NCBI RefSeq assembly: GCF_042242105.1
Contig: NC_092027.1
Span: 5,182,006-5,246,005 of the forward strand
Reading direction: 5' to 3'
Length of the DNA stretch: 64,000 bases
Origin: Pempheris klunzingeri
Lineage: Eukaryota > Chordata > Actinopteri > Acropomatiformes > Pempheridae
Shown here in pieces: positions 12,301 to 58,791 of this stretch; within the stretch, counting starts at the first letter, position 1, and each line of letters starts with the position of its first letter. Below the pieces are notes generated by a model. It was given only the letters and a program-made list of their open reading frames with translations. It was not told the DNA's origin and did no database searches. Position numbers and translations under genes: made by a program.

Positions 12301-15300
12301 AATGAAATGACTGGGCGGGCTTATAACACGTTGAATGTCATGGCTGTGTGTGAACCTGTGCACTCGGTGCGCATTGACTTGTTAGACTTATTGCTAAAGT
12401 TAGCAAGCTAGTTGCACAATAATGGCAGAAAAAGTACAGAGGATCAGTAAATGACTGCTGTGAGTGACCCAACTTGAAGCACACACACACTGAGCTGAAG
12501 AATGACAAAAAAGCTGCGGCTCTCATGACAGACTGTTGTTTAGTGACGCTTTAATCCGAGTGAGCAGTAACTCTGAGCTAAAGGTAACGTTATGTTCATG
12601 ACAGTTTGTGTTTGTATGACTGACATTCAACAGAGTTGTTGATTTGTTGGACTAGAAAAGCTCAGCTGCAGAGCCGCTGTGATGCCAATCTTCTGATGTC
12701 TATCATGGACTCATCTCCAGCAGTAATCAGCCCGTGTGTGTTCATGTGTTGTGGGGGAGTAGCTTGGAAGGGAGGGATGGGATTTCTTCATTTGGATAAT
12801 CAAGCCACAATCTAGCCTACTTTACACTTGTTTCTCCAATGTTACAGACCTCCAATGTTACAGACCCTGTAAAGAACGAGATAATGTGTTAATTAGTGAG
12901 GTTAGAGGTGCTGATTGGTGAATTTTGTTACCCAGAGAGAGGCCAGGCTTCTGGCTGTAGCTGCTTAAAGTGTGCGGACATGAGATCGATTTTCTTATCT
13001 AACTCTCGGCAAGAAAGCGTATTCCCAAAATTGTTGAACTATTACTTTAAATATTTCTTTACATGCAATGATTGAGTGATGTTTCGTTGACATATTTCTG
13101 ATTTTGTTATCTTCTTTTTTCCAAACAGATGGTAAATGCGCAACAAGAACAAATTGAGCAACAGAAGGCCATTCTTCAGCAGTCCTTCTTCACAGAGAAG
13201 GAACTTTTGTTGAAAAGAGAAAAGGCTGTTGAAGCTGAGAAAAATAAGCTTCAGAAACAGTTTGAGGATGAAGTGAACAAGGCCAAAGCTCTCAAAGATG
13301 AGCAAGAGCGTCAGCGGAAGCTCATGGAAGAGGAGAAGAATAAACTTAAGGCCATTATGGATGAAGCTGTAAAGAAACAAAAGGAGGCTGAAGCAGAGAT
13401 GCAGAGCAAGCAGAAAGAAATGGAAGTGATTGAAAAGAAAAGGCTTGAACAAGAAAAACTCCTGGCAGAGGAAAACAAAAAGCTCAGAGAGAAACTCCAG
13501 AGTCTTGAGACTGCCTCCAAACAGGGAGCATCCAAAACGAAGGAAATTGAAGTGCAAACTGATAAGGTTCCTGAGGAGCAGTTAGTTGCCATGACAATGG
13601 TGGGAACAACAAAGAAAGTTTTCAATGGCTCTGTTGAAGTGGACGGTGCGAAGAAAGACGGAGAATCACCTTTGGCATTTGATGGAATTAGAGAGAAAGT
13701 TCCTGCTGAAAGGCTTCATGACATTGGTGTCCTGAACAAAAAAGAATTTGACAAATTGAAAAAGGGCAAAGCCTCTGTGCAAGACCTAGCAAAGACTGAT
13801 AAAGTTAAATCATGTCTCAAGGGACAGAACTCTGTTGGAGGTGTCTTGACTCCATCCAAAGAGAAAATGAGTGTCTATCAGGCTATGACAGAGAACAAGA
13901 TCACTCCCAACACTGCCGCAATGCTCCTGGAAGCTCAAGCAGCTTCAGGTTACATCGTAGATCCAGTGAAGAATAAACTCCTCTCTGTAGACAAGGCTGT
14001 TAAAGATGAGTTAATAGGCCCTGAGCTCCATGACAAGATGCTCTCTGCAGAGCGAGCAGCCACTGGCTTCAGAGATCCCTATACTGGAGCCAAAATCTCT
14101 CTCTTTGAGGCCATGAAAAAGGGACTTATTGAAAAGGAGCAAGCCACCAAATTCTTAGATGTACAGCTTGCAACTGGTGGCATCATTGACCCCATCAATA
14201 GTCACAGAGTGCCACTTCAGACCGCCTACAAGCAGGGTCAGTTTGATGCAGACATGAACAAGAAGCTCAGTGATCCCAGTGATGATTGCAAATTATTCAT
14301 TGACCCCAGCACTCAGGAACAACTCACTTACAAACAGCTACTGGAGAAATGCATCAAAGATGCAGAGACGGGACTGCTGATCTTACCAGTAACAGAGCAA
14401 GCTGCTCAAAGTAAGAGAACATTCACAGATCAGGAGACGAAAGAAATGCTCAGTAAATCAAATGTTAATGTGCCTTTTGGAAAATTCAAAGGCAAAACTG
14501 TCACCATTTGGGAAGTCATAAATTCAGAGTATTTCACTGAAGAGCAAAGAAGAGAATTGATTCGCCAGTACAAAACAGGAAAGATCACAGTAGAGAAGAT
14601 TATTAAAATTGTCATCACTGTTGTGGAAGACAAGGAGAAGAATAATGAAAATGTCTTTAATGGTTTGAGGGCTCCAGTCTCCACAAGTGAACTGTTGGAG
14701 ACAAAGATTATAAACAAAGATTTGTTCAACCAGTTGAGTACTGGCAAGATTACGGTTAAAGAAATCTCTGAGATGGAGCCCGTGAAGAAAGCACTACAAG
14801 GAACACCGAGCATTGCTGGACTGTTGAATGAACCAACCAAGGAGAAAATGCCTTTCTATCAAGCTATGAAGAAGGAATTACTCTCACCAGAAACTGCAAT
14901 GAACCTTCTTGAAGCTCAAGCAGCGACTGGGTTTATAATCGATCCTGTCAAAAATGAGAGGGTCCCTGTTGATGAAGCTGTTAAATCGGGTCTTGTGGGA
15001 CCAGAACTGCATGAACGACTTCTGTCAGCAGAGAGAGCCGTCAGCGGCTACAATGATCCATACACAGGAAAGAAGGTGTCTCTGTTTGAAGCCATGACCA
15101 AGGGCCTTATAAAGAAAGACCATGGCATCCGTCTGCTTGAGGCACAACTCTCAACAGGTGGAATTATTGACCCTGTTAAAAGCTATCGCATCCCACATGA
15201 GGTTGCCTGCAAGCGTGGCTATTTTGATGAGGATATCAGCAAGATCTTGAACAAAAACACTGAGGAAACAAAGGTCTTTTATGATCCTAACTCGCAAGAG

Positions 15301-18300
15301 GATTCAACCTATGCTCAGCTCATGAATAAATGTGTCCCAGACAAAGAGACTGGACTCCCATTGCTTCCTCTGTCAAAGAAAGCTGCAAAGCCAAAAGAAG
15401 AGAAACAGATTACAGAGGCTAAAACAAAAGAGACTTTGAACCAGAAAACTATGGAGCTGGAGTATGGCCCTTTCAAAGGAAGAAAAGTCACAATTTGGGA
15501 GATCATACACTCTGAATATATCACTGAGGAGCAAAGGATACAGCTCATTCGGCAGTACCGAATGGGACAGGTGACAATTGAGAAGCTGATAAAGATTGTG
15601 ATAACAATGGTTGACGAAAAAGAGGACAAAACACAGGAAGAGGCCTGTTTTGAGGGCCTTAGAGCACCAGTCACTGCCGAGTCTTTGCTTGATTCAAACA
15701 TCATCGATAAGGCCACATTTGACCAACTCAAGCAGGGTAAAAAGACACCTAAAGAAGTTAGTGAAACGGATAATGTCCGCAAATACTTGCAGGGCACAGA
15801 CAGCATTAATGGCATCACTATGGGGGATACAAATGAGAAGTTAACCATATATCAAGCAATGAAAAAGAATGTTTTGCAACAAAACACTGGGCTTGCGCTA
15901 CTTGAGGCCCAAGCTGCAACTGGTTTCATAACTGACCCAGTCAAAAATCTGAAATACTCTGTGGATGATGCTGTAAAAGATGGAGTTGTTGGCCCAGAGC
16001 TGCATGAGAAACTTCTGTCAGCTGAGAAAGCAGTGACGGGATACAAAGATCCATATACAGGCAATAAAATTTCTCTATTCCAAGCCATGAAGAAAGAGCT
16101 CGTTCTGAGGGAGCACGCTATTCCTCTCCTAGAGGCCCAGTTCGCTACAGGGGGGATCATTGATCCAGTCAGCAGTCATCGTGTTCCCAGTGATGTGGCC
16201 TTTCAGCGAGGCTATTTGAGCAAGCAAATGTCCAAGTCCTTCAATGAACCCTCAGGTGACGTTAAAGGCTTCACCAATCCCAACACCAATGAAAGTGTTA
16301 CTTACAAGCAGTTGGTAGAGAAATGTGTAAGAGATCCCAGCACTGGTCTGTGCTACCTGCCTCTGTCAAAGGTCGAAGCTCCTGCTCCCACTGAGAAATC
16401 GTATCAATACACAGAAGAGCAAGCTCAAACAGATCTAGCAAACACTCAAATTGAGATCCCTCATAAGAGCTTTGCAGGAAAGAGCATGACTATTTGGGAG
16501 GTCATGAACTCAAATATGCTTCCAGAAGAGGACAGACGCCGCCTCATGGAGCAGTATCGCTCAGGGCAAATAACAAAGGATAGAATGCTAATCATCATCA
16601 TTGAAATCGTTGAACAAAGGGAGTCTCTAAAGACAGAGCAGAGCATGTCATGTGACGTAATCAGAAGGAGAATTACTATTGAGGAGCTATACAGTGCTCG
16701 AATTATTGACTTGCACACATACAACCTCTTGAAACAAGAAAAGATGACTATTCGTGAGGTAATGGAAATGCCGTCAGTAAAACAGTACCTCTTTGGTACT
16801 GGTTGCATTGCTGGAATCATGTCAGACAGTCCTCCAAAGATCAGCATTTACCAGGCTATGAAGAGCGGAAAGATTAAGCCTGAAGTTGCTTTGAATCTCC
16901 TCGAGGCCCAAGCAGCAACAGGATTCATGATTGATCCAGTGAAAGATGAACTTCTCACAGTTGATGAAGCTGTACGCAAGGGGCTCGTGGGCCCTGAACT
17001 TCATGACAAACTTCTCTCTGCTGAGAGAGCAGTTACCGGGTACAAGGACCCATACACCGGGAAGGTGATTTCTCTCTTCCAGGCAATGAAAAAAGACCTT
17101 GTTCTTGAAGATTATGCCCTGAGGCTTTTGGAGGCCCAGAATGCCACTGGTGGACTAATGGACCCAGAGTACTACTTCCACCTCCCCACAGACGTTGCCA
17201 TGCAGCGTGGATACATCAACAAGGAGACACTTGACAGAATATCTGAACCCACTGGGGATGTGCGAGGTTACACTGATCCAACAGCAGATGAAAAACTGTC
17301 CTACGGCCAACTACTGAAAAGATGCAGAGTTGATAAAGAAAGTGGTTTGCGGCTACTTTCACTGGCAGATAGAAGACTTCTCTTCAAGGGTCTCAGAAAG
17401 CAAATCACTGTGGAGGAGCTACTTCGTTCACAGATCATCAACCAAAAAACATACAACGAACTCACCGAGGGTACCATTACAGTGGAGGAGGTCAGCAGAG
17501 ACGTGAAAAAATACCTCGAGGGTACCAGCTGTATTGCTGGTGTGTATGTAGAATCCAGCAAAGACCGCCTGTCTATTTACCAAGCAATGAAGAAAAACAT
17601 GATCAGACCAGGGACTGCCTTTGAGCTCCTTGAGGCTCAAGCTGCCACAGGATATGTCATAGATCCCATTAAAAACCTGAAACTAAATGTCACTGAAGCT
17701 GTTAAGATGGGTGTTGTTGGCCCAGAGTTTAAAGATAAACTCCACTCAGCTGAACGAGCTGTCACAGGCTACAAAGATCCTTATTCTGGCAAGATCATCT
17801 CACTCTTCCAGGCTATGAAAAAGGGCCTCATTCTGAAAGACCACGGCATTCGTCTGCTAGAGGCTCAAATTGCTACTGGTGGAATCATTGATCCACAGGA
17901 GAGCCATCGCCTGCCCGTCGAAACTGCGTACGAACGTGGTCTCTTTGATGAGGAAATGAATGAAATCCTCACTGACCCATCTGATGACACAAAGGGCTTC
18001 TTTGACCCAAACACTGAGGAAAATCTCACCTATCTGCAGCTGATGGAAAGGTGTATGACAGACCCAGAAACAGGCCTCGCTCTGCTGCTGCTTAAAGAAA
18101 AGAAGCGTGAGAGGAAGACGTCATCCAAGTCTTCTGTTCGCAAACGCAGGGTTGTCATCGTCGACCCTGAGACAGGCAAAGAGATGTCTGTGTACGAGGC
18201 ATACCAGAAAGGACTCATTGACCACCAGACGTATCTTGAGCTTGCAGAGCAGGAGTGTGAATGGGAGGAAGTCACCATCACCTCATCTGACGGTGTTGTG

Positions 18301-19329
18301 AAATCCATAATCACTGACAGAAGGTCTGGTCGGCAGTATGACATTGATGACGCAATCTCAAGGGGCCTGATTGACAAGTCGGCTTTGGATCAGTACCGTG
18401 CAGGAACTCTGTCCATCACAGAGTTTGCAGATATGCTGTCTGGAAACATGAGCGGCGTCAGGTCACGTTCATCCTCCTTTGGCTCCTCTTCCTCTTACCC
18501 CATGAGCCCAATACCTTCTATAAAAACACCAGCAACCACATGGAACGACCCAACAGAGGAAACTGGCCCTGTGGCCGGAATCTTAGACACAGAAACACTG
18601 GAGAAGGTGTCCATCACAGAGGCCATACACAGAAACCTTTTGGACAATATAACAGGTCAAAGGCTTCTGGAAGCTCAGGCCTGCACAGGAGGTATTATCG
18701 ACCCAAACACTGGAGAGAAATTCTCTGTCACAGATGCAATGAACAAAGGGCTTGTGGATAAAATCATGGTGGACCGCATCACTCTTGCCCAGAAGGCGTG
18801 CAATGGATTTGAGGATCCCAGAACCAAAACCAAAATGTCAGCAGCCCAAGCTCTAAAGAAAGGCTGGCTGTACTACGAGGCCGGGCAGCGATTCCTCGAG
18901 GTCCAGTATCTCACTGGTGGATTAATTGAACCAGATGCCACCAGCAGGGTCTCCATAGATGAGGCTGTGAAGAAGGGCACCTTGGATGCACGCACTGCGC
19001 AGAAGTTACGAGATGTCAGTGCATACTCAAAATACCTCACATGCCCTAAAACCAAGCTTAAAATCTCTTACAAGGATGCCATGGAAAGAAGCATGATAGA
19101 GGAGGGGAGTGGTCTGCGACTACTTGAAGCATCATCTCAATCAAGCAAAGGCCTCTACAGTCCCTATAGCATAAGCGGCTCAGGCTCCGCCACTGGGTCG
19201 CGGTCTGGCTCAAGATCTGGTTCCAGGTCAGGCTCCAGAAGGGGCAGCTTTGATGCCACGGGTTCAAGTTTCACGACAACCTTCTCTTCCTCCTCCTACA
19301 GTTCACCGAGCTATGGCCGCCGATACTGA
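103..19329 (+). CDS. plec: Plectin, 3' part (18 coding exons; 5' end outside window)
   Basis: Plectin is a giant cytoplasmic linker that ties intermediate filaments to actin, hemidesmosomes and other junctions. Coding exons: 103-180, 642-803, 900-1004, 1108-1203, 1351-1476, 1645-1797, 1976-2130, 2214-2340, 2882-3065, 3936-4093, 4341-4519, 4603-4741, 4866-5222, 5658-5741, 5824-5928, 6130-6228, 8439-11786, 13129-19329. All have AG/GT borders and phases agree, giving 3,951 residues to a TGA stop. The first 16 exons are the plakin domain (spectrin repeats with an SH3 insert at about residues 215-290). Then come a coiled-coil rod and six PRDs. Diagnostic matches to mammalian plectin include [36 protein letters not shown] and the GSRxGSR tail. 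The actin-binding domain and first plakin exons are missing because the window starts inside the gene. The protein ends at YGRRY, without the short extra tail of mammalian plectin. Fish often keep two plectin copies; I cannot say which this is. Confidence 0.96.
381..595 (-). mobile_element. tRNA-derived SINE fragment in a plectin intron
   Basis: Read on the minus strand, this intronic stretch contains GGGGGTTCGATCCCCGGC, which includes a good pol III B box. It continues CTCCTACAAGTCA, then TGAAGCCCAACCTGCTCCTG. This order is familiar from a tRNA-derived SINE widespread in teleosts. The A-box end and the 3' tail are not clear, so it is a degraded partial copy. Confidence 0.55.
3241..3261 (+). 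other. plec: Candidate 21-nt in-frame microexon of plectin
   Basis: Between plakin-domain exons 2882-3065 and 3936-4093 there is a 21-nt segment preceded by TGTTACAG and followed by a strong donor, GTAAGG. Its phase matches on both sides (phase 1 in, phase 1 out), so including it would change EQ-GEQDES to [15 protein letters not shown] without a frame break. I infer an optional microexon; without transcripts it is unproven, since splice-like sites arise by chance. Confidence 0.45.
3324..3355. repeat. (GT)n microsatellite
   Basis: A run of GT dinucleotides in the plectin intron just after the candidate microexon. Confidence 0.95.
6229..8438 (+). other. Plectin intron before the rod exon (2.2 kb)
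   Basis: AT-rich intron between the last plakin-domain exon and the rod exon. I see no coding exon with good borders in it. The only recognisable content is a repeat fragment near 7235-7345. In mammals, isoform choice around the rod exon occurs at this position, but no alternative exon is visible here. Confidence 0.6.
7235..7345 (+). mobile_element. Fragment of a teleost dispersed repeat (TTAATTGACTATCAAAATAG family)
   Basis: It contains TATCAAAATAGTTGCTG and CTGTTGATCGACTAATCATT, the hallmark core of a very common teleost repeat whose terminal parts are better preserved at 33861-34218. Ends are degraded and no target duplication is visible. Confidence 0.5.
8439..11786 (+). CDS. plec: Plectin rod-domain exon (coiled coil)
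   Basis: This single 3,348-nt exon encodes 1,116 residues of nearly unbroken alpha-helical coiled coil, rich in Glu, Lys, Ala and Gln, with heptad-like blocks such as EEAxRxR and AExExxK. The rod drives parallel dimerisation of plectin. It starts after the acceptor at 8437-8438 in phase 0 (AAA GCT TCT) and ends AAA GAG before the donor at 11787. Mammalian plectin also encodes its rod in one large exon, which isoforms without a rod skip. The length is a multiple of three, so the same skip would stay in frame here. An apparent Met-like start a few codons upstream (a GTG at 8421) is intronic. Confidence 0.95.
11909..13052. mobile_element. Transposon-like element with long inverted arms in the last plectin intron
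   Basis: The left arm (about 11909-12115) and right arm (about 12940-13052) are imperfect inverted copies. The left has TTAAAGTAAC, then TCTTGCCCGGAGTTGGAT and AAGAAAGATATCACTCT. The complement of the right end reads TTTAAAGTAATAGTTCAACA, then TCTTGCCGAGAGTTAGAT and AAGAAAATCGAT. This sequence (GTTGAACTATT..TTTAA end) is a widespread teleost DNA-transposon-like repeat with long terminal inverted arms. It fills most of the 1.34-kb intron between the rod exon and the PRD exon. A 17-bp local direct repeat (CTCCAATGTTACAGACC) lies near 12834-12866. Confidence 0.6.
13129..19329 (+). CDS. plec: Plectin last exon: rod end plus six plakin repeat domains
   Basis: This 6,201-nt terminal exon encodes the end of the coiled coil (about 130 residues) and then six PRDs starting near 13680, 14655, 15651, 16660, 17386 and 18562. 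Each PRD carries the hallmark [13 protein letters not shown] and [14 protein letters not shown] motifs. Linker modules of the type [23 protein letters not shown] follow PRDs 1, 2 and 3. After PRD5 comes the basic linker with [16 protein letters not shown], which in mammals is part of the intermediate-filament binding site. PRD6 is the diverged type ([15 protein letters not shown]). The tail is Gly-Ser-Arg rich ([19 protein letters not shown]), a feature shared with desmoplakin; [10 protein letters not shown] and [16 protein letters not shown] identify plectin rather than desmoplakin. Confidence 0.96.
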   Translation: MVNAQQEQIEQQKAILQQSFFTEKELLLKREKAVEAEKNKLQKQFEDEVNKAKALKDEQERQRKLMEEEKNKLKAIMDEAVKKQKEAEAEMQSKQKEMEVIEKKRLEQEKLLAEENKKLREKLQSLETASKQGASKTKEIEVQTDKVPEEQLVAMTMVGTTKKVFNGSVEVDGAKKDGESPLAFDGIREKVPAERLHDIGVLNKKEFDKLKKGKASVQDLAKTDKVKSCLKGQNSVGGVLTPSKEKMSVYQAMTENKITPNTAAMLLEAQAASGYIVDPVKNKLLSVDKAVKDELIGPELHDKMLSAERAATGFRDPYTGAKISLFEAMKKGLIEKEQATKFLDVQLATGGIIDPINSHRVPLQTAYKQGQFDADMNKKLSDPSDDCKLFIDPSTQEQLTYKQLLEKCIKDAETGLLILPVTEQAAQSKRTFTDQETKEMLSKSNVNVPFGKFKGKTVTIWEVINSEYFTEEQRRELIRQYKTGKITVEKIIKIVITVVEDKEKNNENVFNGLRAPVSTSELLETKIINKDLFNQLSTGKITVKEISEMEPVKKALQGTPSIAGLLNEPTKEKMPFYQAMKKELLSPETAMNLLEAQAATGFIIDPVKNERVPVDEAVKSGLVGPELHERLLSAERAVSGYNDPYTGKKVSLFEAMTKGLIKKDHGIRLLEAQLSTGGIIDPVKSYRIPHEVACKRGYFDEDISKILNKNTEETKVFYDPNSQEDSTYAQLMNKCVPDKETGLPLLPLSKKAAKPKEEKQITEAKTKETLNQKTMELEYGPFKGRKVTIWEIIHSEYITEEQRIQLIRQYRMGQVTIEKLIKIVITMVDEKEDKTQEEACFEGLRAPVTAESLLDSNIIDKATFDQLKQGKKTPKEVSETDNVRKYLQGTDSINGITMGDTNEKLTIYQAMKKNVLQQNTGLALLEAQAATGFITDPVKNLKYSVDDAVKDGVVGPELHEKLLSAEKAVTGYKDPYTGNKISLFQAMKKELVLREHAIPLLEAQFATGGIIDPVSSHRVPSDVAFQRGYLSKQMSKSFNEPSGDVKGFTNPNTNESVTYKQLVEKCVRDPSTGLCYLPLSKVEAPAPTEKSYQYTEEQAQTDLANTQIEIPHKSFAGKSMTIWEVMNSNMLPEEDRRRLMEQYRSGQITKDRMLIIIIEIVEQRESLKTEQSMSCDVIRRRITIEELYSARIIDLHTYNLLKQEKMTIREVMEMPSVKQYLFGTGCIAGIMSDSPPKISIYQAMKSGKIKPEVALNLLEAQAATGFMIDPVKDELLTVDEAVRKGLVGPELHDKLLSAERAVTGYKDPYTGKVISLFQAMKKDLVLEDYALRLLEAQNATGGLMDPEYYFHLPTDVAMQRGYINKETLDRISEPTGDVRGYTDPTADEKLSYGQLLKRCRVDKESGLRLLSLADRRLLFKGLRKQITVEELLRSQIINQKTYNELTEGTITVEEVSRDVKKYLEGTSCIAGVYVESSKDRLSIYQAMKKNMIRPGTAFELLEAQAATGYVIDPIKNLKLNVTEAVKMGVVGPEFKDKLHSAERAVTGYKDPYSGKIISLFQAMKKGLILKDHGIRLLEAQIATGGIIDPQESHRLPVETAYERGLFDEEMNEILTDPSDDTKGFFDPNTEENLTYLQLMERCMTDPETGLALLLLKEKKRERKTSSKSSVRKRRVVIVDPETGKEMSVYEAYQKGLIDHQTYLELAEQECEWEEVTITSSDGVVKSIITDRRSGRQYDIDDAISRGLIDKSALDQYRAGTLSITEFADMLSGNMSGVRSRSSSFGSSSSYPMSPIPSIKTPATTWNDPTEETGPVAGILDTETLEKVSITEAIHRNLLDNITGQRLLEAQACTGGIIDPNTGEKFSVTDAMNKGLVDKIMVDRITLAQKACNGFEDPRTKTKMSAAQALKKGWLYYEAGQRFLEVQYLTGGLIEPDATSRVSIDEAVKKGTLDARTAQKLRDVSAYSKYLTCPKTKLKISYKDAMERSMIEEGSGLRLLEASSQSSKGLYSPYSISGSGSATGSRSGSRSGSRSGSRRGSFDATGSSFTTTFSSSSYSSPSYGRRY

Positions 19330-37397: not shown

Positions 37398-40300
37398 ATG
37401 GGCTCCATCACTGAAGATATTGAGGTGAAGCAAAATGGCCACACAGAAGTCCATGAACCTGTGGCTGGCATATTACTGGAGAAGACAAAAGAGAAGATAA
37501 CCATATACCAAGCCATGAAAAAACGTCTACTTAAGCCAGGAACAGCATTAGCCCTGCTTGAGGCACAAGCAGCCACAGTAGGCATCATAGACCCAATACA
37601 AAATCGAATACTTCCTGTTGCAGATGCTGTTAAAGAGGAAATAGTTGGACCAGAGATGAAAGAGAAACTCCTCATAGCAGAGAAAGCTGTCAGTGGCTAT
37701 GTAGACCCCTACACCAACCAAATGATATCTGTATTCCAAGCTATGCAAAAAGATCTAGTCCCAAGAGATTATGGATTAAGGCTGCTGGAAGCACAGATAG
37801 CCACACATGGACTGTTTGATCCTGTTGAGAAGACAAATATTTCGGCTGAAGCAGCGATTCAAAAAGGCTACTATGAAAAAGGTTTGCTCGATAACCAGAT
37901 GTCAGAGCTCAAAGTGTTCTACAATCCAAGTTCACAAGAAAATCTTAACTACCAAAGCCTCTTGGAGAAATGCACTGTGGAGCCTGACACAGGCCTGTTG
38001 CTCCTTCCTGTCTGCATCGCCTTCAAAGGTCTACGAAGAGGTATTTCCTCCACAGAACTCCTTGAATCAAAGATCATTGACAAAGAAACATTTGATGACT
38101 TGCAGAAGGGAAATACCACAACACAGGATGTAATGTTGATGGAAACAGTGAGAGAGTACCTTGAGGGCAAAGGCAGTATCGCAGGCATTGCTGTACTCTC
38201 AACAAATCAGAGAATAAGCATTTATCAAGCCATGAAGCAAGGTATACTGATGCCAGGAACAGCACTTGTTCTACTAGAGGCGCAAGCTGCAACTGGATTC
38301 ATGATTGATCCTGTAGAAAATAAAAAGTTCACTGTTGATGAGGCCATCAAAAGCAAACTTGTTGGCCCAGAATATCATGCAAAGCTGCATTCTGCTGAGC
38401 GGGCAGTAACTGGATATAAAGACCCTTACTCTGGTGAAACTATATCCCTGTTTCAAGCACTGTCACAAGACCTCATCGTTAAGGAACATGGGATCCGCCT
38501 ACTTGAGGCACAAATTGCAACAGGTGGAATAATAGACCCAATCAACAGTCACAGACTTCCCACAGAAGTGGCCTTCAAGAGAGGTTATTTTAATGAAGAA
38601 ATGAATGCAATACTAAAAGATTCAGGCGATGATACAAAAGGGTTTTTTGACCCAAACACAGAAGACAATCTAACTTACCTTCAGCTGATGGAAAGGTGTG
38701 TCACTGATCCCGCCACTGGACTGTGCCTCCTCCCTCTCCTTGAAAAGTCAGACAGGCTGAATTTTAACTTCATTGACTACCAAACTAAAATGGCCTTCAA
38801 AGAGGAGAAAGTGAACATGACATGTGGGAAGTTCACGGGAATGACAGTATCTCTGTGGGAACTCATGATGTCAGAATACTTTGATGAACAACAGAGGACA
38901 GACATCATTCAAAAATACAGAGAAGGGAAGCTCAGTATCAAGAAAATCATCACAATGGTTATGGAAGTCATAGAGAAGTCTGTGAAAACAACTGAAGTCA
39001 TTTTCGAAGGCATCAGAGAAACTGTTACGGCCAAACAGCTTGTGGAGGCAGATATCATTAGTGAGGAGGTCCTGGATGATCTGAAAAGGGGAAAGAAGTC
39101 AGTGAAAGAGGTGATAGAAGATGAAAATGTAAATATGTACCTACAGGGAAAAGACAGCATTGCAGGTATTCTGCTCTCTGATTCTCAAGTCATGACCATT
39201 TATCAGGCCAGACAAAAAGGAAAGCTGATGCCAGGAACTGCTCTGATTCTACTGGAGGCACAGGCAGCGACAGGGTTCATTATTGACCCTATTGGAAACA
39301 GGAAATTTTCAGTTGATGATGCTGTCAAAGCAAAGATTGTGGGGGCAGATGTCTGTCAAAAGCTGCGCTCAGCAGAGAAAGCCGTCACTGGGTACAAAGA
39401 TCCAAGTGATGGCAAAATAATCTCTTTGTTCCAAGCCATGCAAAAAGATCTCATCCTACAAGACCATGGGATTCGACTCCTGGAAGCACAAATCGCCACT
39501 GGTGGGATCATTGACCCAGTGAACAGCCATCGCATTCCTGTGCACGTGGCCTATAAGAGGGGATACTTTAATGAGGAAATGAATCAGATCCTGAAAGATC
39601 CAAGTGATGACACCAAAGGATTCTTTGACCCCAACACCCACGAGAACCTGACATACTTGCAGCTCATGGCCAGATGTGTAACAGATCCTAGTACAGGCTT
39701 GTGCCTCTTGCCAATCAAAAGCAAAAGTAACAAAATTAACATAGACAATAATATTAGGGAAATGTTCAAAGCAACAACAGTTACTGTTAAGTACGGCAGG
39801 TTCAAGGACAAACACACAACACTGTGGGATCTTATAAATTCAGAGTATTTGTCTGAAGACAAAAGACGGGAGTTTTTCAAGCTCTTCAAGTCGAGGAAAA
39901 TCACAATTGAGCAACTCACCGTCACCATTGTAGAGATCATTGAGAGTAAGGAGATAAAACAGCAAGCAGGGCTGAAGTTTGAAGGTCTCAGAGGAGGCAT
40001 CTCTATTGTGGATCTTATGGAGCTTGACATTGTGGATGAAAAAACATACAACAGCTTGATAGATGGACAGATGACAAGCACTGATGTGATGAAAATGGAC
40101 AGTGTGAGAACCTACCTACAAGGGAAAAGTTGTGTGGCTGGAGTGATACAGCAACCCTCCAATAAGAAGCTAAGCATCTATGAGGCACAGAGAGCTGGCA
40201 TCCTGACACCTGGGACTGCACTTTGCCTCCTTGAAGCACAAGCAGCCACAGGGTTCATTGTTGATCCTCTGAAAAACAAAAAACTTACAGTGGAACAAAG

Positions 40301-43300
40301 TCTCAAAGAAAAGGTAATTTGTCCTCAGATGTATGAAAAGCTTCTGTCTGCAGAGAGGGCAGTGACTGGTTACAGAGATCCGTACACTGGTCAGAAGATC
40401 TCACTTTTCCAAGCCTTGCAAAAGGATCTGATTGTCAAGCAGCATGGCATCCGTTTACTTGAGGCCCAGATTGCTACAGGTGGTATCATTGATCCTTGTA
40501 ACTGTCTTCACCTACCCCTTGAGGCTGCATACAGGAAAGGATATTTTGATGCAGAACTTAATAAAATCCTGTCAGACCCAACTGATGACACAAGGGGCTT
40601 TTTTGACCCAAAGACACAAGACAACCTGACATACATGGAGATGTTAGGTAGATGTGTAAAAGACAAGGAAACAGGACTATTTCTCCTGCCTCTGAATGAC
40701 ACACCAAAAGCTACAGAAATGAAGGCAAAAATGTACACTGACACAGAGATAAAGCAAGAGTTTGAAGAGACAGCTGTGAGCATATCAGTAGGACGCTTTT
40801 CAGGAAAATCAGTTTCTCTATGGGACTTGATTCATTCTGGATACTTCACTGATGATCAGCGGCTTGAATTCATTGAAAAATTCAGAACAAGGAAGATAAG
40901 CACACACACTATAATCACATTAGTGATTTCCACCATTGAAAAACTGGAGAGAAGTGAAACTTCCGAAATGATAATGGGCCTGAGAAAACCCGTCTCTGCA
41001 CAACAACTACTGGATTCTGATATTATTGATGCAGATACATTCAGACAGGTGAAAGAAGGAAAAGTGACCCTCGAAGCAGTAACCCAACGTGAATCTGTGA
41101 GAGGATACCTGAAGGGAATTGGAAGCATTGCTGGAATTAAGGTTCATCCATCCCAGAAAATCATGAGCATATATGAAGCGAAAAAGGAAGAGCTGTTGAC
41201 ACCTGGCATTGCACTTGAATTGCTTGAAGCGCAGGCTGCAACAGGATGGGTCATTGATCCTCTCAAAAACAAGTTCTATGCTGTTGATGAGGCAGCAAGA
41301 GAGAAAGTAATCGGACCCGATGTACATGAGGAACTTCTCTCAGCTGAACGAGCTGTTACTGGCTACAAAGACCCATATACAGATTCAACAATATCACTGT
41401 TTGAAGCCATGAATGAACAGCTGATTCAAAGAAGCAATGGCATTCGTCTTCTTGAGGCACAGATAGCAACTGGAGGAATCATTGACCCCAATCAAAGTCA
41501 CAGACTACCTGTTCATGTTGCAATTAAAAGGCGATATCTGGATGAAGAACTGAAGGAAGTTCTGTTGAACCCCACTGATGATGCAAAGGGATTCTTTGAC
41601 CCAAATACCAAAGAAGACCTCTCTTATCTTCAGCTCATGAAGCGATGTGAGAAAGATCCTGAAACTGGGCTACTTCTTCTACCCCTGTATGAAGAAAAAT
41701 CCCATGTATTTCATACAGATGAGACAATAGAGCTTGCATTCAAAGACAAAACTATTGCCTTGAATGCAGGAAAGTTTAAAAACAAAGAGGTGACATTGTG
41801 GGAAGTGTTGCTCTCTGAATACATATCAGAACAAAAAAGACAGCAGCTCATACAACAATACAGGACAGGAGCCATGAAAATGGAGGAGATGATTGAAATA
41901 CTCACTGTTATCATTACAGAGGTATCATCCAAAGAAAAAAAGTTCAAAGGACTAAGAAAGCAGGTCTCAGCCAGTGAGCTGTATGAGTCAAAGATTATCT
42001 CAAAAGATCTTTTCACACAGATTATACAAGGAGAAGTAACTGAAGAGAATGTTAACAAAATGGAATCAATTCAGAAGTACCTTGGAGCTACAAACTGTAT
42101 AGCAGGTGTCAGAGTTGAATCTACAAAGAAGGTTATGAGCATCTACGAAGCAAAAACCAAAGGCCTACTGACCCCTGGCACATCTCTGGTTCTGCTGGAG
42201 GCTCAAGCTGCCACTGGGTTTGTCATCGACCCAGTGAACAACAAGAAACTTTCTGTAGAGGAAGGTGTGGCTCAGGGAGTGGTCGGCAGAGAGTGGAAAA
42301 ACAAACTGCTTTCAGCAGAACGAGCAGTTACAGGGTACAAAGATCCCTACACTGGAGACACTATTTCTTTGTTCCAAGCCTTGAAAAAAGATCTCATTGT
42401 CAAAGATCATGGAATTCGCCTTCTCGAGGCCCAAATTGCCACAGGAGGCATAATTGACCCAGTGCACAGTCACAGAGTGCCAGTGCAGGTGGCATACCAA
42501 AGAGGCTACTTTGATGAGGAAATGAACCAGATTCTGTCTGATCCTGATGATGACACCAAGGGCTTTTTTGACCCCAACACACAAGACAATCTCACCTATC
42601 TCCAGCTGGTAGAAAGGTGTATTACAGATCCCACCACAGGACTTACCTTACTGTCCATTGTAAAGAGAGGAGAGTTTTATTTCTTTGTTGATGAGGCAAC
42701 AAAAATCATTCTGAAATCTACAACAACAACCAAAGCAGGAGGGAAATACCAAGGAACAACAGTGTCTCTGTGGGATCTGCTCTACTCCAAATACATCACG
42801 GAGGAGAAGAGGAGAGAGCTTGTTCAACAGTACAAGTCTGGATCAATTACAATTGAACGCTTTTTGGAAATCATCCTGACAATCATTCATCAGCAGACAA
42901 CAAAGACCTCATCATCATCAATCGTCAAATGTCAACCACCGATTACAAAAGTGGAAAGCAGCAAGACAAACACTACCATCACCACTACAGTCACAGAGAC
43001 AACTGAAGTTCAAAACTTCCATGGAATCAGAAAGGATGTCACTGCTGCTGAGCTACTTGAATCAAAAATCATCAATGAGGACCTCTACAAAGATCTTAGC
43101 ATTGGAAAAGTCACAGTGACGGAAGTGAGTGAAATGGACTCAATACGTAAATACTTGGAGGGAACTAATAGCATTGCAGGGGTGTACCTGCAGTCCACCA
43201 AGGAGACCCTGAGTATCTATGAAGCCAAAAGCAGAGGTCTGCTGAGTCCTGGGACTTCTCTGGTTCTGCTGGAGGCTCAAGCTGCCACTGGCTTTGTCAT

Positions 43301-46300
43301 CAACCCAGTGAACAACAAGAAACTTTCTGTAGAGGAAGCTGTGGCTCAAAGAGTGGTCGGCAGTGAGTGGAAAAACAAACTGCTTTCAGCAGAAAGAGCA
43401 GTCACTGGATACAAAGATCCCTACACTGGAAACACAATTTCTTTGTTCCAAGCCTTGAAAAAAGATCTCATTGTCAAAGATCATGGGATTCGTCTCCTTG
43501 AAGCCCAAATTGCCACAGGAGGTATAATAGACCCAGTGCACAGCCACAGAGTGCCGGTACAGGTGGCATATGAAAGAGGTTACTTTGATGAGGAAATGAA
43601 CCAGATTCTGTCTGATCCTGATGATGACACCAAGGGCTTTTTTGATCCAAACACTCAAGAGAACCTCACCTATCTCCAGCTGGTTGAGAGGTGTATCACT
43701 GATCCCACCACAGGCCTGAGTTTGCTAGTCATTGCGAAGAAAGGCGAGTTTTATTTCTTCGTTGATGAGGCAACAAAAATCATTCTGAAATCTACAACAA
43801 CAACCAAAGCAGGAGGGAAATACCAAGGAACAACAGTGTCTCTGTGGGATCTGCTCTACTCCAAATACATCACGGAGGAGAAGAGGAGAGAGCTTGTTCA
43901 ACAGTACAAGTCTGGATCAATTACAATTGAACGCTTTTTGGAAATCATCCTGACAATCATTCATCAGCAGACAACAAAGACCTCATCATCATCATCAATC
44001 GTCAAATGTCAACCACCGATTCCAAAAGTGGAAAGCAGCAGGACAAACACTACCATCACCACTACAGTCACAGAGACAACTGAAGTTCAAAACTTCCATG
44101 GAATCAGAAAGGATGTCACTGCTGCTGAGCTACTTGAATCAAAAATCATCAATGAGGACCTCTACAAAGATCTTAGCACTGGAAAAGTCACAGTGACGGA
44201 AGTGAGTGAAATGGACTCAATACGTAAGTACTTGGAGGGAACTAATAGCATTGCAGGGGTGTACCTGCAGTCCACCAAGGAGACCCTGAGTATCTATGAA
44301 GCCAAAAGCAGAGGTCTGCTAACTCCTGGGACTTCTCTGGTTCTGCTGGAGGCTCAAGCTGCCACTGGCTTTGTCATCAACCCAGTGAACAACAAGAAAC
44401 TTTCTGTAGAGGAAGCTGCGGCTCAAAGAGTGGTCGGCAGTGAGTGGAAAAACAAACTGCTTTCAGCAGAAAGAGCAGTCACTGGATACAAAGATCCCTA
44501 CACTGGAAACACAATTTCTTTGTTCCAAGCCTTGAAAAAAGATCTCATTGTCAAAAATCATGGGATTCGTCTCCTAGAAGCCCAAATTGCCACAGGAGGT
44601 ATAATAGACCCAGTGCATAGCCACAGAGTGCCGGTACAGGTGGCATATGAAAGAGGTTACTTTGATGAGGAAATGAACCAGATTCTGTCTGATCCTGATG
44701 ATGACACCAAGGGATTTTTTGATCCAAACACTCAAGAGAACCTCACCTATCTCCAGCTGGTTGAGAGGTGTATCACTGATCCCACCACAGGCCTGAGTTT
44801 GCTAGTCATTGCGAAGAAAGGCGAGTTTTATTTCTTTGTTGATGAGGCAACAAAAATCATTCTGAAATCTACAACAACAACCAAAGCAGGAGGGAAATAC
44901 CAAGGAACAACAGTGTCTCTGTGGGATCTGCTCTACTCCAAATACATCACGGAGGAGAAGAGGAGAGAGCTTGTTCAACAGTACAAGTCTGGATCAATTA
45001 CAATTGAACGCTTTTTGGAAATCATCCTGACAATCATTCATCAGCAGACAACAAAGACCTCATCATCATCATCAATCGTCAAATGTCAACCACCGATTCC
45101 AAAAGTGGAAAGCAGCAAGACAAACACTACCATCACCACTACAGTCACAGAGACAACTGAAGTTCAAAACTTCCATGGAATCAGAAAGGATGTCACTGCT
45201 GTTGAGCTACTTGAATCAAAAATCATCAATGAGGACCTCTACAAAGATCTTAGCACTGGAAAAGTCACAGTGACGGAAGTGAGTGAAATGGACTCAATAC
45301 GTAAATACTTGGAGGGAACTAATAGCATTGCAGGGGTGTACCTGCAGTCCACCAAGGAGACCCTGAGTATCTATGAAGCCAAAAGCAGAGGTCTGCTGAC
45401 TCCTGGGACTTCTCTGGTTCTGCTGGAGGCTCAAGCTGCCACTGGCTTTGTCATCAACCCAGTGAACAACAAGAAACTTTCTGTAGAGGAAGCTGCGGCT
45501 CAAAGAGTGGTCGGCAGTGAGTGGAAAAACAAACTGCTTTCAGCAGAAAGAGCAGTCACTGGATACAAAGATCCCTACACTGGAAACACAATTTCTTTGT
45601 TCCAAGCCTTGAAAAAAGATCTCATTGTCAAAAATCATGGGATTCGTCTCCTAGAAGCCCAAATTGCCACAGGAGGTATAATAGACCCAGTGCATAGCCA
45701 CAGAGTGCCGGTACAGGTGGCATATGAAAGAGGTTACTTTGATGAGGAAATGAACCAGATTCTGTCTGATCCTGATGATGACACCAAGGGATTTTTTGAT
45801 CCAAACACTCAAGAGAACCTCACCTATCTCCAGCTGGTTGAGAGGTGTATCACTGATCCCACCACAGGCCTGAGTTTGCTAGTCATTGCGAAGAAAGGCG
45901 AGTTTTATTTCTTTGTTGATGAGGCAACAAAAATCATTCTGAAATCTACAACAACAACCAAAGCAGGAGGGAAATACCAAGGAACAACAGTGTCTCTGTG
46001 GGATCTGCTCTACTCCAAATACATCACGGAGGAGAAGAGGAGAGAGCTTGTTCAACAGTACAAGTCTGGATCAATTACAATTGAACGCTTTTTGGAAATC
46101 ATCCTGACAATCATTCATCAGCAGACAACAAAGACCTCATCATCATCATCAATCGTCAAATGTCAACCACCGGTTACAAAAGTGGAAAGCAGCAAGACAA
46201 ACACTACCATCACCACTACAGTCACAGAAACAACTGAAGTTCAAAACTTCCATGGAATCAGAAAGGATGTCACTGCTGCTGAGCTACTTGAATCAAAAAT

Positions 46301-46973
46301 CATCAATGAGGACCTCTACAAAGATCTTAGCACTGGAAAAGTCACAGTGACAGAAGTGAGTGAAATGGACTCAATACGTAAGTACTTGGAGGGAACTAAT
46401 AGCATTGCAGGGGTATACCTGCAGTCCACCAAGGAGACCCTGAGTATCTATGAAGCCAAAAGCAGAGGTCTGCTGACTCCTGGGACTTCTCTGGTTCTGC
46501 TGGAGGCTCAAGCTGCCACTGGCTTTGTCATCAACCCAGTGAACAACAAGAAACTTTCTGTAGAGGAAGCTGCGGCTCAAAGAGTGGTCGGCAGTGAGTG
46601 GAAAAACAAACTGCTTTCAGCAGAAAGAGCAGTCACTGGATACAAAGATCCCTACACTGGAAACACAATTTCTTTGTTCCAAGCCTTGAAAAAAGATCTC
46701 ATTGTCAAAAATCATGGGATTCGTCTCCTTGAAGCCCAAATTGCCACAGGAGGTATAATAGACCCAGTGCACAGCCACAGAGTGCCGGTACAGGTGGCAT
46801 ATGAAAGAGGTTACTTTGATGAGGAAATGAACCAGATTCTGTCTGATCCTGATGATGACACCAAGGGATTTTTTGATCCAAACACTCAAGAGAACCTCAC
46901 CTATCTCCAGCTGGTTGAGAGGTGTATCACTGATCCCACCACAGGCCTGAGTTTGCTGCCCTTGAACAAGTAA
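37398..46973 (+). CDS. eppk1: Epiplakin, ten plakin repeat domains in one coding exon
   Basis: Epiplakin is a cytoplasmic plakin made almost only of PRDs that binds and bundles keratin and vimentin filaments in epithelia. This ORF is 3,191 residues, with its ATG six bases after a predicted acceptor. PRDs start near residues 20, 207, 535, 859, 1192, 1514, 1872, 2231, 2590 and 2949. Each has an [12 protein letters not shown]-type motif and most have [12 protein letters not shown] and [14 protein letters not shown]. Linker modules (WDLL.S.YI.EEKRRELVQQY type) follow PRDs 2-9, not PRD1 or PRD10. There is no actin-binding, plakin, SH3 or coiled-coil domain, which separates it from plectin. The last four PRD-linker units are almost identical and carry a Ser/Thr-rich spacer with KTSSSSSIVK. 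PRD1 is the most unusual (AATVGIIDP). The protein ends LLPLNK straight after PRD10. Mammalian epiplakins have more PRDs (13 in human, 16 in mouse). It lies downstream of plectin in the same orientation, as in mammals. Confidence 0.95.
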   Translation: MGSITEDIEVKQNGHTEVHEPVAGILLEKTKEKITIYQAMKKRLLKPGTALALLEAQAATVGIIDPIQNRILPVADAVKEEIVGPEMKEKLLIAEKAVSGYVDPYTNQMISVFQAMQKDLVPRDYGLRLLEAQIATHGLFDPVEKTNISAEAAIQKGYYEKGLLDNQMSELKVFYNPSSQENLNYQSLLEKCTVEPDTGLLLLPVCIAFKGLRRGISSTELLESKIIDKETFDDLQKGNTTTQDVMLMETVREYLEGKGSIAGIAVLSTNQRISIYQAMKQGILMPGTALVLLEAQAATGFMIDPVENKKFTVDEAIKSKLVGPEYHAKLHSAERAVTGYKDPYSGETISLFQALSQDLIVKEHGIRLLEAQIATGGIIDPINSHRLPTEVAFKRGYFNEEMNAILKDSGDDTKGFFDPNTEDNLTYLQLMERCVTDPATGLCLLPLLEKSDRLNFNFIDYQTKMAFKEEKVNMTCGKFTGMTVSLWELMMSEYFDEQQRTDIIQKYREGKLSIKKIITMVMEVIEKSVKTTEVIFEGIRETVTAKQLVEADIISEEVLDDLKRGKKSVKEVIEDENVNMYLQGKDSIAGILLSDSQVMTIYQARQKGKLMPGTALILLEAQAATGFIIDPIGNRKFSVDDAVKAKIVGADVCQKLRSAEKAVTGYKDPSDGKIISLFQAMQKDLILQDHGIRLLEAQIATGGIIDPVNSHRIPVHVAYKRGYFNEEMNQILKDPSDDTKGFFDPNTHENLTYLQLMARCVTDPSTGLCLLPIKSKSNKINIDNNIREMFKATTVTVKYGRFKDKHTTLWDLINSEYLSEDKRREFFKLFKSRKITIEQLTVTIVEIIESKEIKQQAGLKFEGLRGGISIVDLMELDIVDEKTYNSLIDGQMTSTDVMKMDSVRTYLQGKSCVAGVIQQPSNKKLSIYEAQRAGILTPGTALCLLEAQAATGFIVDPLKNKKLTVEQSLKEKVICPQMYEKLLSAERAVTGYRDPYTGQKISLFQALQKDLIVKQHGIRLLEAQIATGGIIDPCNCLHLPLEAAYRKGYFDAELNKILSDPTDDTRGFFDPKTQDNLTYMEMLGRCVKDKETGLFLLPLNDTPKATEMKAKMYTDTEIKQEFEETAVSISVGRFSGKSVSLWDLIHSGYFTDDQRLEFIEKFRTRKISTHTIITLVISTIEKLERSETSEMIMGLRKPVSAQQLLDSDIIDADTFRQVKEGKVTLEAVTQRESVRGYLKGIGSIAGIKVHPSQKIMSIYEAKKEELLTPGIALELLEAQAATGWVIDPLKNKFYAVDEAAREKVIGPDVHEELLSAERAVTGYKDPYTDSTISLFEAMNEQLIQRSNGIRLLEAQIATGGIIDPNQSHRLPVHVAIKRRYLDEELKEVLLNPTDDAKGFFDPNTKEDLSYLQLMKRCEKDPETGLLLLPLYEEKSHVFHTDETIELAFKDKTIALNAGKFKNKEVTLWEVLLSEYISEQKRQQLIQQYRTGAMKMEEMIEILTVIITEVSSKEKKFKGLRKQVSASELYESKIISKDLFTQIIQGEVTEENVNKMESIQKYLGATNCIAGVRVESTKKVMSIYEAKTKGLLTPGTSLVLLEAQAATGFVIDPVNNKKLSVEEGVAQGVVGREWKNKLLSAERAVTGYKDPYTGDTISLFQALKKDLIVKDHGIRLLEAQIATGGIIDPVHSHRVPVQVAYQRGYFDEEMNQILSDPDDDTKGFFDPNTQDNLTYLQLVERCITDPTTGLTLLSIVKRGEFYFFVDEATKIILKSTTTTKAGGKYQGTTVSLWDLLYSKYITEEKRRELVQQYKSGSITIERFLEIILTIIHQQTTKTSSSSIVKCQPPITKVESSKTNTTITTTVTETTEVQNFHGIRKDVTAAELLESKIINEDLYKDLSIGKVTVTEVSEMDSIRKYLEGTNSIAGVYLQSTKETLSIYEAKSRGLLSPGTSLVLLEAQAATGFVINPVNNKKLSVEEAVAQRVVGSEWKNKLLSAERAVTGYKDPYTGNTISLFQALKKDLIVKDHGIRLLEAQIATGGIIDPVHSHRVPVQVAYERGYFDEEMNQILSDPDDDTKGFFDPNTQENLTYLQLVERCITDPTTGLSLLVIAKKGEFYFFVDEATKIILKSTTTTKAGGKYQGTTVSLWDLLYSKYITEEKRRELVQQYKSGSITIERFLEIILTIIHQQTTKTSSSSSIVKCQPPIPKVESSRTNTTITTTVTETTEVQNFHGIRKDVTAAELLESKIINEDLYKDLSTGKVTVTEVSEMDSIRKYLEGTNSIAGVYLQSTKETLSIYEAKSRGLLTPGTSLVLLEAQAATGFVINPVNNKKLSVEEAAAQRVVGSEWKNKLLSAERAVTGYKDPYTGNTISLFQALKKDLIVKNHGIRLLEAQIATGGIIDPVHSHRVPVQVAYERGYFDEEMNQILSDPDDDTKGFFDPNTQENLTYLQLVERCITDPTTGLSLLVIAKKGEFYFFVDEATKIILKSTTTTKAGGKYQGTTVSLWDLLYSKYITEEKRRELVQQYKSGSITIERFLEIILTIIHQQTTKTSSSSSIVKCQPPIPKVESSKTNTTITTTVTETTEVQNFHGIRKDVTAVELLESKIINEDLYKDLSTGKVTVTEVSEMDSIRKYLEGTNSIAGVYLQSTKETLSIYEAKSRGLLTPGTSLVLLEAQAATGFVINPVNNKKLSVEEAAAQRVVGSEWKNKLLSAERAVTGYKDPYTGNTISLFQALKKDLIVKNHGIRLLEAQIATGGIIDPVHSHRVPVQVAYERGYFDEEMNQILSDPDDDTKGFFDPNTQENLTYLQLVERCITDPTTGLSLLVIAKKGEFYFFVDEATKIILKSTTTTKAGGKYQGTTVSLWDLLYSKYITEEKRRELVQQYKSGSITIERFLEIILTIIHQQTTKTSSSSSIVKCQPPVTKVESSKTNTTITTTVTETTEVQNFHGIRKDVTAAELLESKIINEDLYKDLSTGKVTVTEVSEMDSIRKYLEGTNSIAGVYLQSTKETLSIYEAKSRGLLTPGTSLVLLEAQAATGFVINPVNNKKLSVEEAAAQRVVGSEWKNKLLSAERAVTGYKDPYTGNTISLFQALKKDLIVKNHGIRLLEAQIATGGIIDPVHSHRVPVQVAYERGYFDEEMNQILSDPDDDTKGFFDPNTQENLTYLQLVERCITDPTTGLSLLPLNK
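42665..46973 (+). repeat. eppk1: Four near-identical tandem units of 1,074/1,077 bp within eppk1
   Basis: Measured from the word GAGTTTTATTTC, units begin at 42672, 43746, 44823 and 45900, giving periods of 1,074, 1,077 and 1,077 bp (358/359 codons). Only a handful of base differences per unit are visible by eye, including synonymous ones. The shorter first unit lacks one TCA codon in the serine run. Each unit holds one linker and one PRD. Confidence 0.95.
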
Positions 46974-56063: not shown

Positions 56064-58791
56064 ATGGAGGAAGGCCAAGACTTCTCCCTTTGTGGTAAAG
56101 CAGTGGAAACTGAAGCTAATCTGAGTAAGTAAAATGGCCATGTAGTAAAGCTGTTAGTTTGATGACTGTATATGAGCTACACAAGTATTAATTTAGTATA
56201 ACCTCCATACATTACCAGAAAATGTTGCATTGGTAGTGGATACCTATTTCATCAGAAAGCATAAATAAAGTCATGCATTACTTTTCTGCTCTCCTTTTTT
56301 CTGTTTTTCAGGAGATGAGCACTATTGGAAGCTTGTCGCAGACTTCATTGGCCCTCAGTCAGGAGAAGGGTTAGAGCTTGAAAAGGCTCCATGCAAGAAC
56401 AGATGTTTGATTCAAGTAGGACTTATAAAAGAGGACAATAATTTTCCGTGGATTGCCATTATAGAATGGCTAAAGAAAATCTTCCCCCGCCATCATTCAG
56501 CTGATTTTCGTCGTTTGGTGGAAAGAGGCATCGCGGCAACGTTGAGTCTAGGAAGCGAAGCAAGGCAGGCCTTTCTGGAATCAGACGTCAACTTCAGTTT
56601 TGTTGGCCCGATATGTGACAGCATCTCGGTGGAACGAGAACATCTTTTGGAAATGAGGGATTTTGCAGAGCGAGCTCAGTCAATTGAAGTCACAAATGCA
56701 TTGATCCTCGAGTTGAGCAACTTTGTCACCAGGGAGAAACTTGCACCAGTCGTTTTAGTTAGCTGGCTCAGAAACTTCAACCCTGAGTTTTGTAAGAATG
56801 GAGACATTCAAAAGGCATATAAAGTTCTTAGAGCCAAGATAAAAAAGTTAAAACTGCATTACCGCAATCATGAAACAAGAAGTCACAGGAGGAATGCAGC
56901 GATGGAAAATCTGCTTCAAAGTCCATTTGAACTGGTGCGGAAAAGAACGCCTCGAATGTTTGTGAAGAAACGCATAAAAAGAGAGGATGTCATAAATTAT
57001 GAAAAAGTTACAGTCAAGGAAGAATACGAGAGCTCTGAAATCATGCAAGGTGAGATGGACAGAGGACACGTAAAGAAATTAATACGTGTCTCTGAAAGTG
57101 ATGAGGATTTCACAGAGGCCCAGACGCTGCTCGACGTCACCATGCTGTCTGTCCAAAAGCTGTCAAGTATGTACGGTGGGAAAACCACAGCATGCAAGAA
57201 AGTCTCCTTAGATCTCCTCAGAAATCAGTACGCTCTAACATGCAAGGAGCATCCAGCTATGGCAGAGTTTCAGAAAAAACTCAACTCTGTCTGTGAAGAT
57301 GTTTCACTTGCCTCTCCAATGGTGTTTCTGAACTACAACGCCAATTTCCTTGTTGACATGCACAACACCGTTGAGCAGCAGATTGCGGGCTTTGAAAAAG
57401 AGATCATTATGTCGACGGAAGAGAAACTGGGCCGAGACAAGCTTCCAAAATTCAGCAACTTTGTGAATATGCCAGAAAGTGCCACTTCGCGCTACATTCA
57501 CATGGCTTGTAATATCTTGGCCCCTCGCACCCCTGGCACACAAAACTACAGAAAACACTGGGTGGCTTTCTGCGATGAAAAGAAAAATCCTTCCAGACTC
57601 ACAGGGGATCAATCGAACCTATTCAACTACTACTTTGAAGCTGCAGCGGCCCTCATTCACCATCACAAAGAGACCTCGCTCTTCTTCTCCGATTTGCTGT
57701 CGCTGAACAACGACGATTGTCCAAACATTATTCTGGAGAGTGTTGCCGCTGATGCTAATGATCCTGTGATACAGAGCCTTGTGTGCGTTCTGGCCATCGT
57801 TTACTGCAAAATCCTCGGTCCTTACTGGCAGCTTCTAAAAAGTGGAGGAGAGTACTCACACTTCAGCCGGTACATACTCTGCCTCTACCAAAAGTTCCTC
57901 GATTGGTCCAAAAATCCCTCAACACTGCTGGAACCTGAAGGGGCCACAAATGTTTTCCTGCAGTTTCCATTGCAGGAGAAAACCTTTGACGGCGTGTTTC
58001 ATTTCTGCGGCCAGTGGCACACAAACAGAGACCTGATCCGAGCTTGCTTGAAGAGGACGGTGAAGGTGATTGCTGCTGTCACTGAGGAACACCTGAAGGA
58101 TTTCCTGCCAGGAGGAACATTTTCTCAAGTCCCTTCACCAGATGTGAGCTTAGAGCTTGCAAGCTGCACTTTCTCCGTCTTGATGGCGGAATATCCCTTC
58201 AGCCAGGCCCACCCTGAAAAAAAGAAAACACCTGACAAGTCCTCCAAACGCTCCTCACACAAGAACCTGTCGTCGGATAGCTCTCAGGAAGAGGACAACC
58301 GATCCGGTTCATCTGATGGCAGCTCAGATGAATCTCCTGGTGGGCAAACTAAAAAGAATACATACGTTAGCCAAAAGGATGACAGCAGTCTGAAAGGAAA
58401 AGAAAAGGGAGGAAAGGCACATGAAGTAAAGCGGGAGGAGAACATGGATAGGGAGTACATAACAGCTACAGTGAGCAAAAATGGAGGGCCGTGCAAGACA
58501 CAGCAGGATGTTGACAAACTGATGCTGCGTTTTGATGGCAAACCCAGAGCTGAGAAACGGGAGGCGATCCGTTGTGAGATACTTTACCAGAAGATGATTC
58601 TGAACAACACAGACCCAAACCTGCAGTGTGTTTTCCAAAACAGCACGCAGATGGTGTTGAAGCTGAAGCTCTCACTCCCCCGGGTCAAACCTGGGTACTC
58701 TCTTGTCTGGGCGCCAAGAAAGACCAAGATAAAGCCGGCGCTCAAAGACAAAAAGAACGCCGCTGCTGGTGAGAGTGAAGGAAAAGTGTAA
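56064..58791 (+). CDS. Unrecognised 846-residue protein, possibly nuclear
   Basis: Two coding exons, 56064-56124 and 56312-58791, join in frame (CTG A|GA GAT) to 846 residues. I do not recognise the family with confidence. Visible parts: an N-terminal region; a basic stretch (about residues 175-240: KIKKLKLHYRN, FVKKRIKRED); two SUMO-type motifs, IKRE (about 242) and VKEE (about 255); a long mixed-helical middle with MACNILAPRTPGT and VLAIVYCKILGPYWQLL; an acidic Ser/Asp-rich segment (about 673-698); and a C-terminal motif, EAIRCEILYQKMIL, followed by a Lys-rich tail. The C-terminal motif faintly recalls one in uncharacterised fish and invertebrate proteins that travel with mobile elements. 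The almost intronless body and that hint make a domesticated transposon gene possible, but no DDE motif or zinc finger can be pointed out. The intact long ORF, head-to-head promoter and clean leader introns support a real gene. Confidence 0.85.

Follow-up and report, generated by a model that had tools for sequence, protein, structure and literature searches.

Four near-identical PRD units at the 3' end of a putative epiplakin gene in the fish Pempheris klunzingeri, probably homogenised through recurrent unequal crossovers

The window, a 64,000-nucleotide stretch of the Pempheris klunzingeri genome with zero N, carries a plectin PRD-bearing exon and, downstream of it on the same strand, a long ORF that runs from ATG to stop with no internal stop (Table 1). 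A Pfam search placed plectin repeats in 27 stretches of the 3191-residue product, with no plakin or spectrin family among the matches to this ORF; four further families fell below E 0.001 on the whole protein, no single stretch of them passing alone. Within the ORF, as Pfam reads it, the product consists of PRDs and linkers only, without plakin domain or rod, and cuts at the conserved end of each PRD divide it into ten units. Judged from the single ORF, the coding sequence appears to occupy one exon, and an acceptor-like AG 6 bases 5' of the ATG at 37398 is consistent with a non-coding first exon. We predict from sequence that the gene is epiplakin (eppk1), having PRDs only, one coding exon and plectin as its neighbour; plectin likewise adjoins zebrafish epiplakin, according to an excerpt of the published account (PMC8782857). 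The initial annotation had given the gene this name, and Pfam content, PRD profile, tree and plectin neighbour all bear it out. Downstream of eppk1 lie an ORF of 794 aa with no Pfam match (56407-58791) and another for a riboflavin transporter (SLC52; 62081-62959).

Table 1. Features of the putative eppk1 gene and its plectin neighbour, in window coordinates
Feature	Coordinates	Strand	Remarks
Plectin PRD-bearing exon, neighbour of eppk1	13129..19329	+	6 PRDs
Putative eppk1 (epiplakin) coding exon	37398..46973	+	3191 aa, 10 PRDs and linkers; from ORF, profile and tree
Units 1-5	37398..41681	+	PRDs mutually saturated at silent sites
Unit 6, linker and head	41682..42135	+	Saturated against the array
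PRD6 body	42136..42653	+	Homogenised earlier than the array; about 90% identity with its PRDs (dS 0.43-0.48)
Array unit 1 (U1; linker and PRD7)	42654..43727	+	1,074 bp, without one TCA codon
Array unit 2 (U2; linker and PRD8)	43728..44804	+	1,077 bp
Array unit 3 (U3; linker and PRD9)	44805..45881	+	1,077 bp; 5 differences from U2
Array unit 4 (U4; linker and PRD10)	45882..46958	+	1,077 bp, then private C-terminal tail and stop

The PRDs of the 3' half are of the B type, by bit scores for U3 and by the tree for PRDs 6-10. The best match of the array unit is human desmoplakin PRD-B: U3 reached 315.7 bits with chain 1lm7, 313.7 with the second half of 5dzz, and less with the first half of 5dzz (202.6) and with 1lm5 (90.1). 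All three chains matched the desmoplakin gene on contig C15 of the same genome, 1lm7 falling on its second PRD and 1lm5 on its third. PRDs 6-10 come together in the tree as a single clade (support 100/99) that excludes the genome's plectin and desmoplakin PRDs, and this clade clusters with plectin PRD5 and desmoplakin PRD-B at a modest 81/77.

The last four linker-plus-PRD units make up an intragenic tandem array inside one long exon. Pairs of units differ by between 5 (U2-U3) and 20 (U1-U4) nucleotides, with dS of 0.012-0.035 and dN of 0.002-0.015; with unit boundaries set slightly differently, dS comes to 0.012-0.033. The 22 variable codons, counted without a one-codon indel, comprise 11 silent and 11 replacement, too few for a claim of selection. 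In self-comparison, 100-bp windows from 43000 to 45700 were 98-100% identical at an offset of 1,077 bp, and those at 42700 and 42800 were 100% identical at 1,074; identity fell to 89-92% in windows that span the indel or run into the C-terminal tail. The control for this comparison, background identity at the same offsets, gave 17-40% at 41000-41800. The longest exact runs shared between units span 234-495 bp. The repeat is internal to the gene: U1 begins with codons unlike those of the others, similarity stops before the tail of U4, every unit is a whole number of codons long, and the repeat ends within the ORF. The self-comparison and pairwise dN/dS thus confirm what the initial annotation had claimed, namely four consecutive 1,074/1,077-bp units near-identical even at silent sites, and the low dS of U1-U4 beside saturated PRDs 1-5 upholds its reading of a recent homogenisation. 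At an assumed silent rate of 4e-9 changes per site per year, the depth of the array would be about 1.5-4.4 million years.

The linkers of the array hold 43-44 Ser and Thr per 172-173 residues, against 17-28 in the linkers before PRDs 3-6, which are 138-145 residues long. Part of this is an insert rich in Ser and Thr, about 31 residues long, at 42915-43010 and at the corresponding position of each of the three following units; it has no counterpart in the alignment of units 2-6 or of plectin units.

The initial annotation had described the first six PRDs as clearly diverged, which is right for PRDs 1-5, as it is for the linker and head of unit 6, and wrong for the PRD6 body. Among themselves and against the array PRDs, PRDs 1-5 show dS from 1.74 to beyond measure. 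Between units 6 and 7 a single change point at 42136 (likelihood ratio 171) divides 454 sites, 46% of which differ, from the 518 that follow, of which 10% differ; past it the PRD6 body lies at dS 0.43-0.48 from all four array units, with a bootstrap interval of 0.31-0.68 against unit 9. Unit 6 is a mosaic, its linker and head saturated and its body partly homogenised with the array. A mosaic of this dS points to an exchange, older than the present array, that involved PRD6, and because the PRD6 body stands as an earlier layer of its own, sharply bounded, recombination has acted at least twice. Two age layers of exchange are visible within one exon.

Among U1-U4 there are 27 variable columns, three of which represent one indel and six of which lie at the unit junction. 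Most single out one unit (U1 in 14, U4 in 5, U2 in 3 and U3 in 1), and four divide the units two against two, three of them pairing U2 with U3 and one pairing U2 with U4 against the tree. With PRD6 as root, three columns place U1 outside U2-U4, and one, in the last PRD codon, places U4 outside instead; the two conflicting columns could come from conversion or from repeated mutation. When junction and gap columns are left out, private changes number 5 in U1, 5 in U4, 3 in U2 and 1 in U3. The closeness of U2 and U3 and the larger number of private changes in the end units fit the prediction of unequal crossing over, under which units at the ends should exchange least, though there are only four units and few columns to order them.

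We consider it probable that recurrent unequal crossing over has homogenised the eppk1 array, perhaps aided by gene conversion, an earlier exchange having extended into PRD6. Such exchange would add or remove whole in-frame units, so that PRDs would be gained or lost with the frame kept, and we infer that the copy number of the array may vary between individuals. A distinctly less probable account, though one with a real chance, is one recent burst of tandem duplication from a single unit with no continuing exchange. Such a burst would leave dS low across the whole array, as it is (0.012-0.035), and one unrooted tree fits 26 of the 27 variable columns, only 4 of which are informative; what it leaves out is the PRD6 body, an older layer bounded at 42136 that requires recombination at least twice.

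Near-identical kilobase repeats are difficult to assemble, and the assembler may have repeated one or two real units. Assembly duplication is nevertheless an unlikely source of the array, as differences private to one unit occur in all four, a codon is missing from U1 and U4 has its own tail, the repeat is in frame throughout and confined to the ORF, and the repeat score typical of the array was found four times in the search of the own genome, all here, with 150 of 195 candidates scored. Very improbable indeed is that the silent sites are alike through constraint at the DNA or RNA level rather than through recent exchange: GC3 was the sole test applied to this idea, and the array values of 0.42-0.48 are ordinary against 0.34-0.50 in units 1-6, while silent sites in PRDs 1-5, which lie in this exon too, are saturated. 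GC-biased conversion was also considered as the main explanation and rejected, the GC3 of the array not being raised.

Homogenisation at this end of the gene has close parallels in mammals. Human and murine EPPK1 carry 9-17 PRDs, a number that varies through almost identical C-terminal PRDs, and one cell line holds two EPPK1 variants with 4 and 7 almost identical PRDs, according to an excerpt of PMC9563781, which agrees with the mammalian likeness drawn in the initial annotation. Excerpts of two further papers list mouse Eppk1 among coding VNTRs, with a unit of 984-990 bp (PMC12903361), and report non-reference human sequences that align to chimpanzee EPPK1 exons (PMC6984370). Going by published descriptions, the gene studied here shares with human and mouse EPPK1 a PRD-only make-up, a single coding exon, a homogenised 3' end and plectin as neighbour; it differs in having 10 PRDs, 4 of them alike, and a partly homogenised PRD6, and its unit, though of about 1 kb as in mouse Eppk1, is 1,074/1,077 bp rather than 984-990 bp. 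A 2021 paper on mouse and lower vertebrates reportedly finds, going by its title, that the repeats are conserved in lower vertebrates. The one sign that this homogenisation would have arisen independently of the mammalian one is its low dS. The type of array is already known from human and mouse EPPK1, so that the fish array, though real, is an instance one would expect. What it contributes is evidence at silent sites, from a fish, on a coding repeat of variable copy number in mammals, and it opens to testing the idea that epiplakin is homogenised at this same end in all jawed vertebrates.

The gene product would be an intermediate-filament binding protein built of PRDs and linkers. Five basic residues in the groove of the envoplakin PRD are important for vimentin binding, as stated in an excerpt of PMC4782060. 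We transferred the groove numbering onto the envoplakin chain with its start assumed at residue 1822, whereupon eight of the eight named residues had the correct letter. PRDs 6-10 have a basic residue at three of the five groove positions, the other two not being basic; filament binding by the array units is plausible on these residues, and we infer it as part of the overall explanation.

The plectin-repeat model search of the fish's own genome (646 Mb, 439 contigs) gave at least 131 matches, all on contigs C3, C6, C8, C12, C15, C16 and C17, with 150 of the 195 candidates scored. The top repeat score of the array, 71.7 bits, had four occurrences among the scored matches, all in the eppk1 array, and no further copy of the array was found among these candidates. 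Relatives of U3 were confirmed in none of 10 candidate stretches from viral contigs and none of 291 from bacterial and archaeal genomes.

Plectin and desmoplakin are each present as two genes in this genome, a duplication that points to a teleost host. Five plakins of the genome were scanned with a profile built from epiplakin PRDs 2-10, which, eight matches below 30 bits being dropped, counted 10 PRDs in eppk1, 6 in each of two plectin exons, and 3 and 25 in the desmoplakins. The plectin exons, one in the window and its copy on C8, are built of the same PRD and linker modules as eppk1. Five of the six PRDs in each copy pair one-to-one in the tree, PRD2 being left unresolved there, and through this pairing no within-gene homogenisation is seen in plectin.

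The second desmoplakin-type gene, at C6:26538189-26558018, has 25 PRDs against 3 in its C15 paralogue, with which it is co-linear across the stretches compared. The PRD exon of this gene stays open over 6,609 aa and begins with 23 A-type PRDs (22 of them in 729-bp units); after these come PRD-B, a spacer rich in Ser and Thr, PRD-C and finally a GSR-rich tail. Units 1-21 differ from one another at dS 0.01-0.84, and the last, the 22nd, lies at dS 1.2-1.9 from the rest. Units three apart are the most alike: they average 56.6 differences, and the remaining lags up to 12 give means of 74-101 (p 0.003 by permutation over the first 14 units, lag and stretch both picked after looking). At the envoplakin-groove positions, four of five are without a basic residue in PRDs 2-22 of this gene, and PRD-A of the C15 paralogue has a basic residue at none of the five.

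Like eppk1, the C6 desmoplakin has tandem PRD units that are alike within a single exon; unlike eppk1, its PRDs are of the A type, its unit measures 729 bp and its units number 22, of which 21 are alike and the last is diverged. Among the literature matches listed, as seen in titles and abstract openings, we found no expanded desmoplakin, and the C6 array appears, from its sequence, to be less expected than the epiplakin array. We lean towards recurrent intragenic PRD amplification, in which epiplakin (B-type) and one desmoplakin (A-type, with 25 PRDs rather than 3) would have been expanded and homogenised independently. If this is true, the tail of one desmosomal protein would be giant and might also be variable; the C6 array suggests that PRD number is more fluid among plakins than the three-PRD layout of desmoplakin implies. 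In translation, the spacer between PRD-B and PRD-C of the C6 gene, at about 26556.5-26557.2 kb, contains short tandem Ser/Thr-rich repeats.
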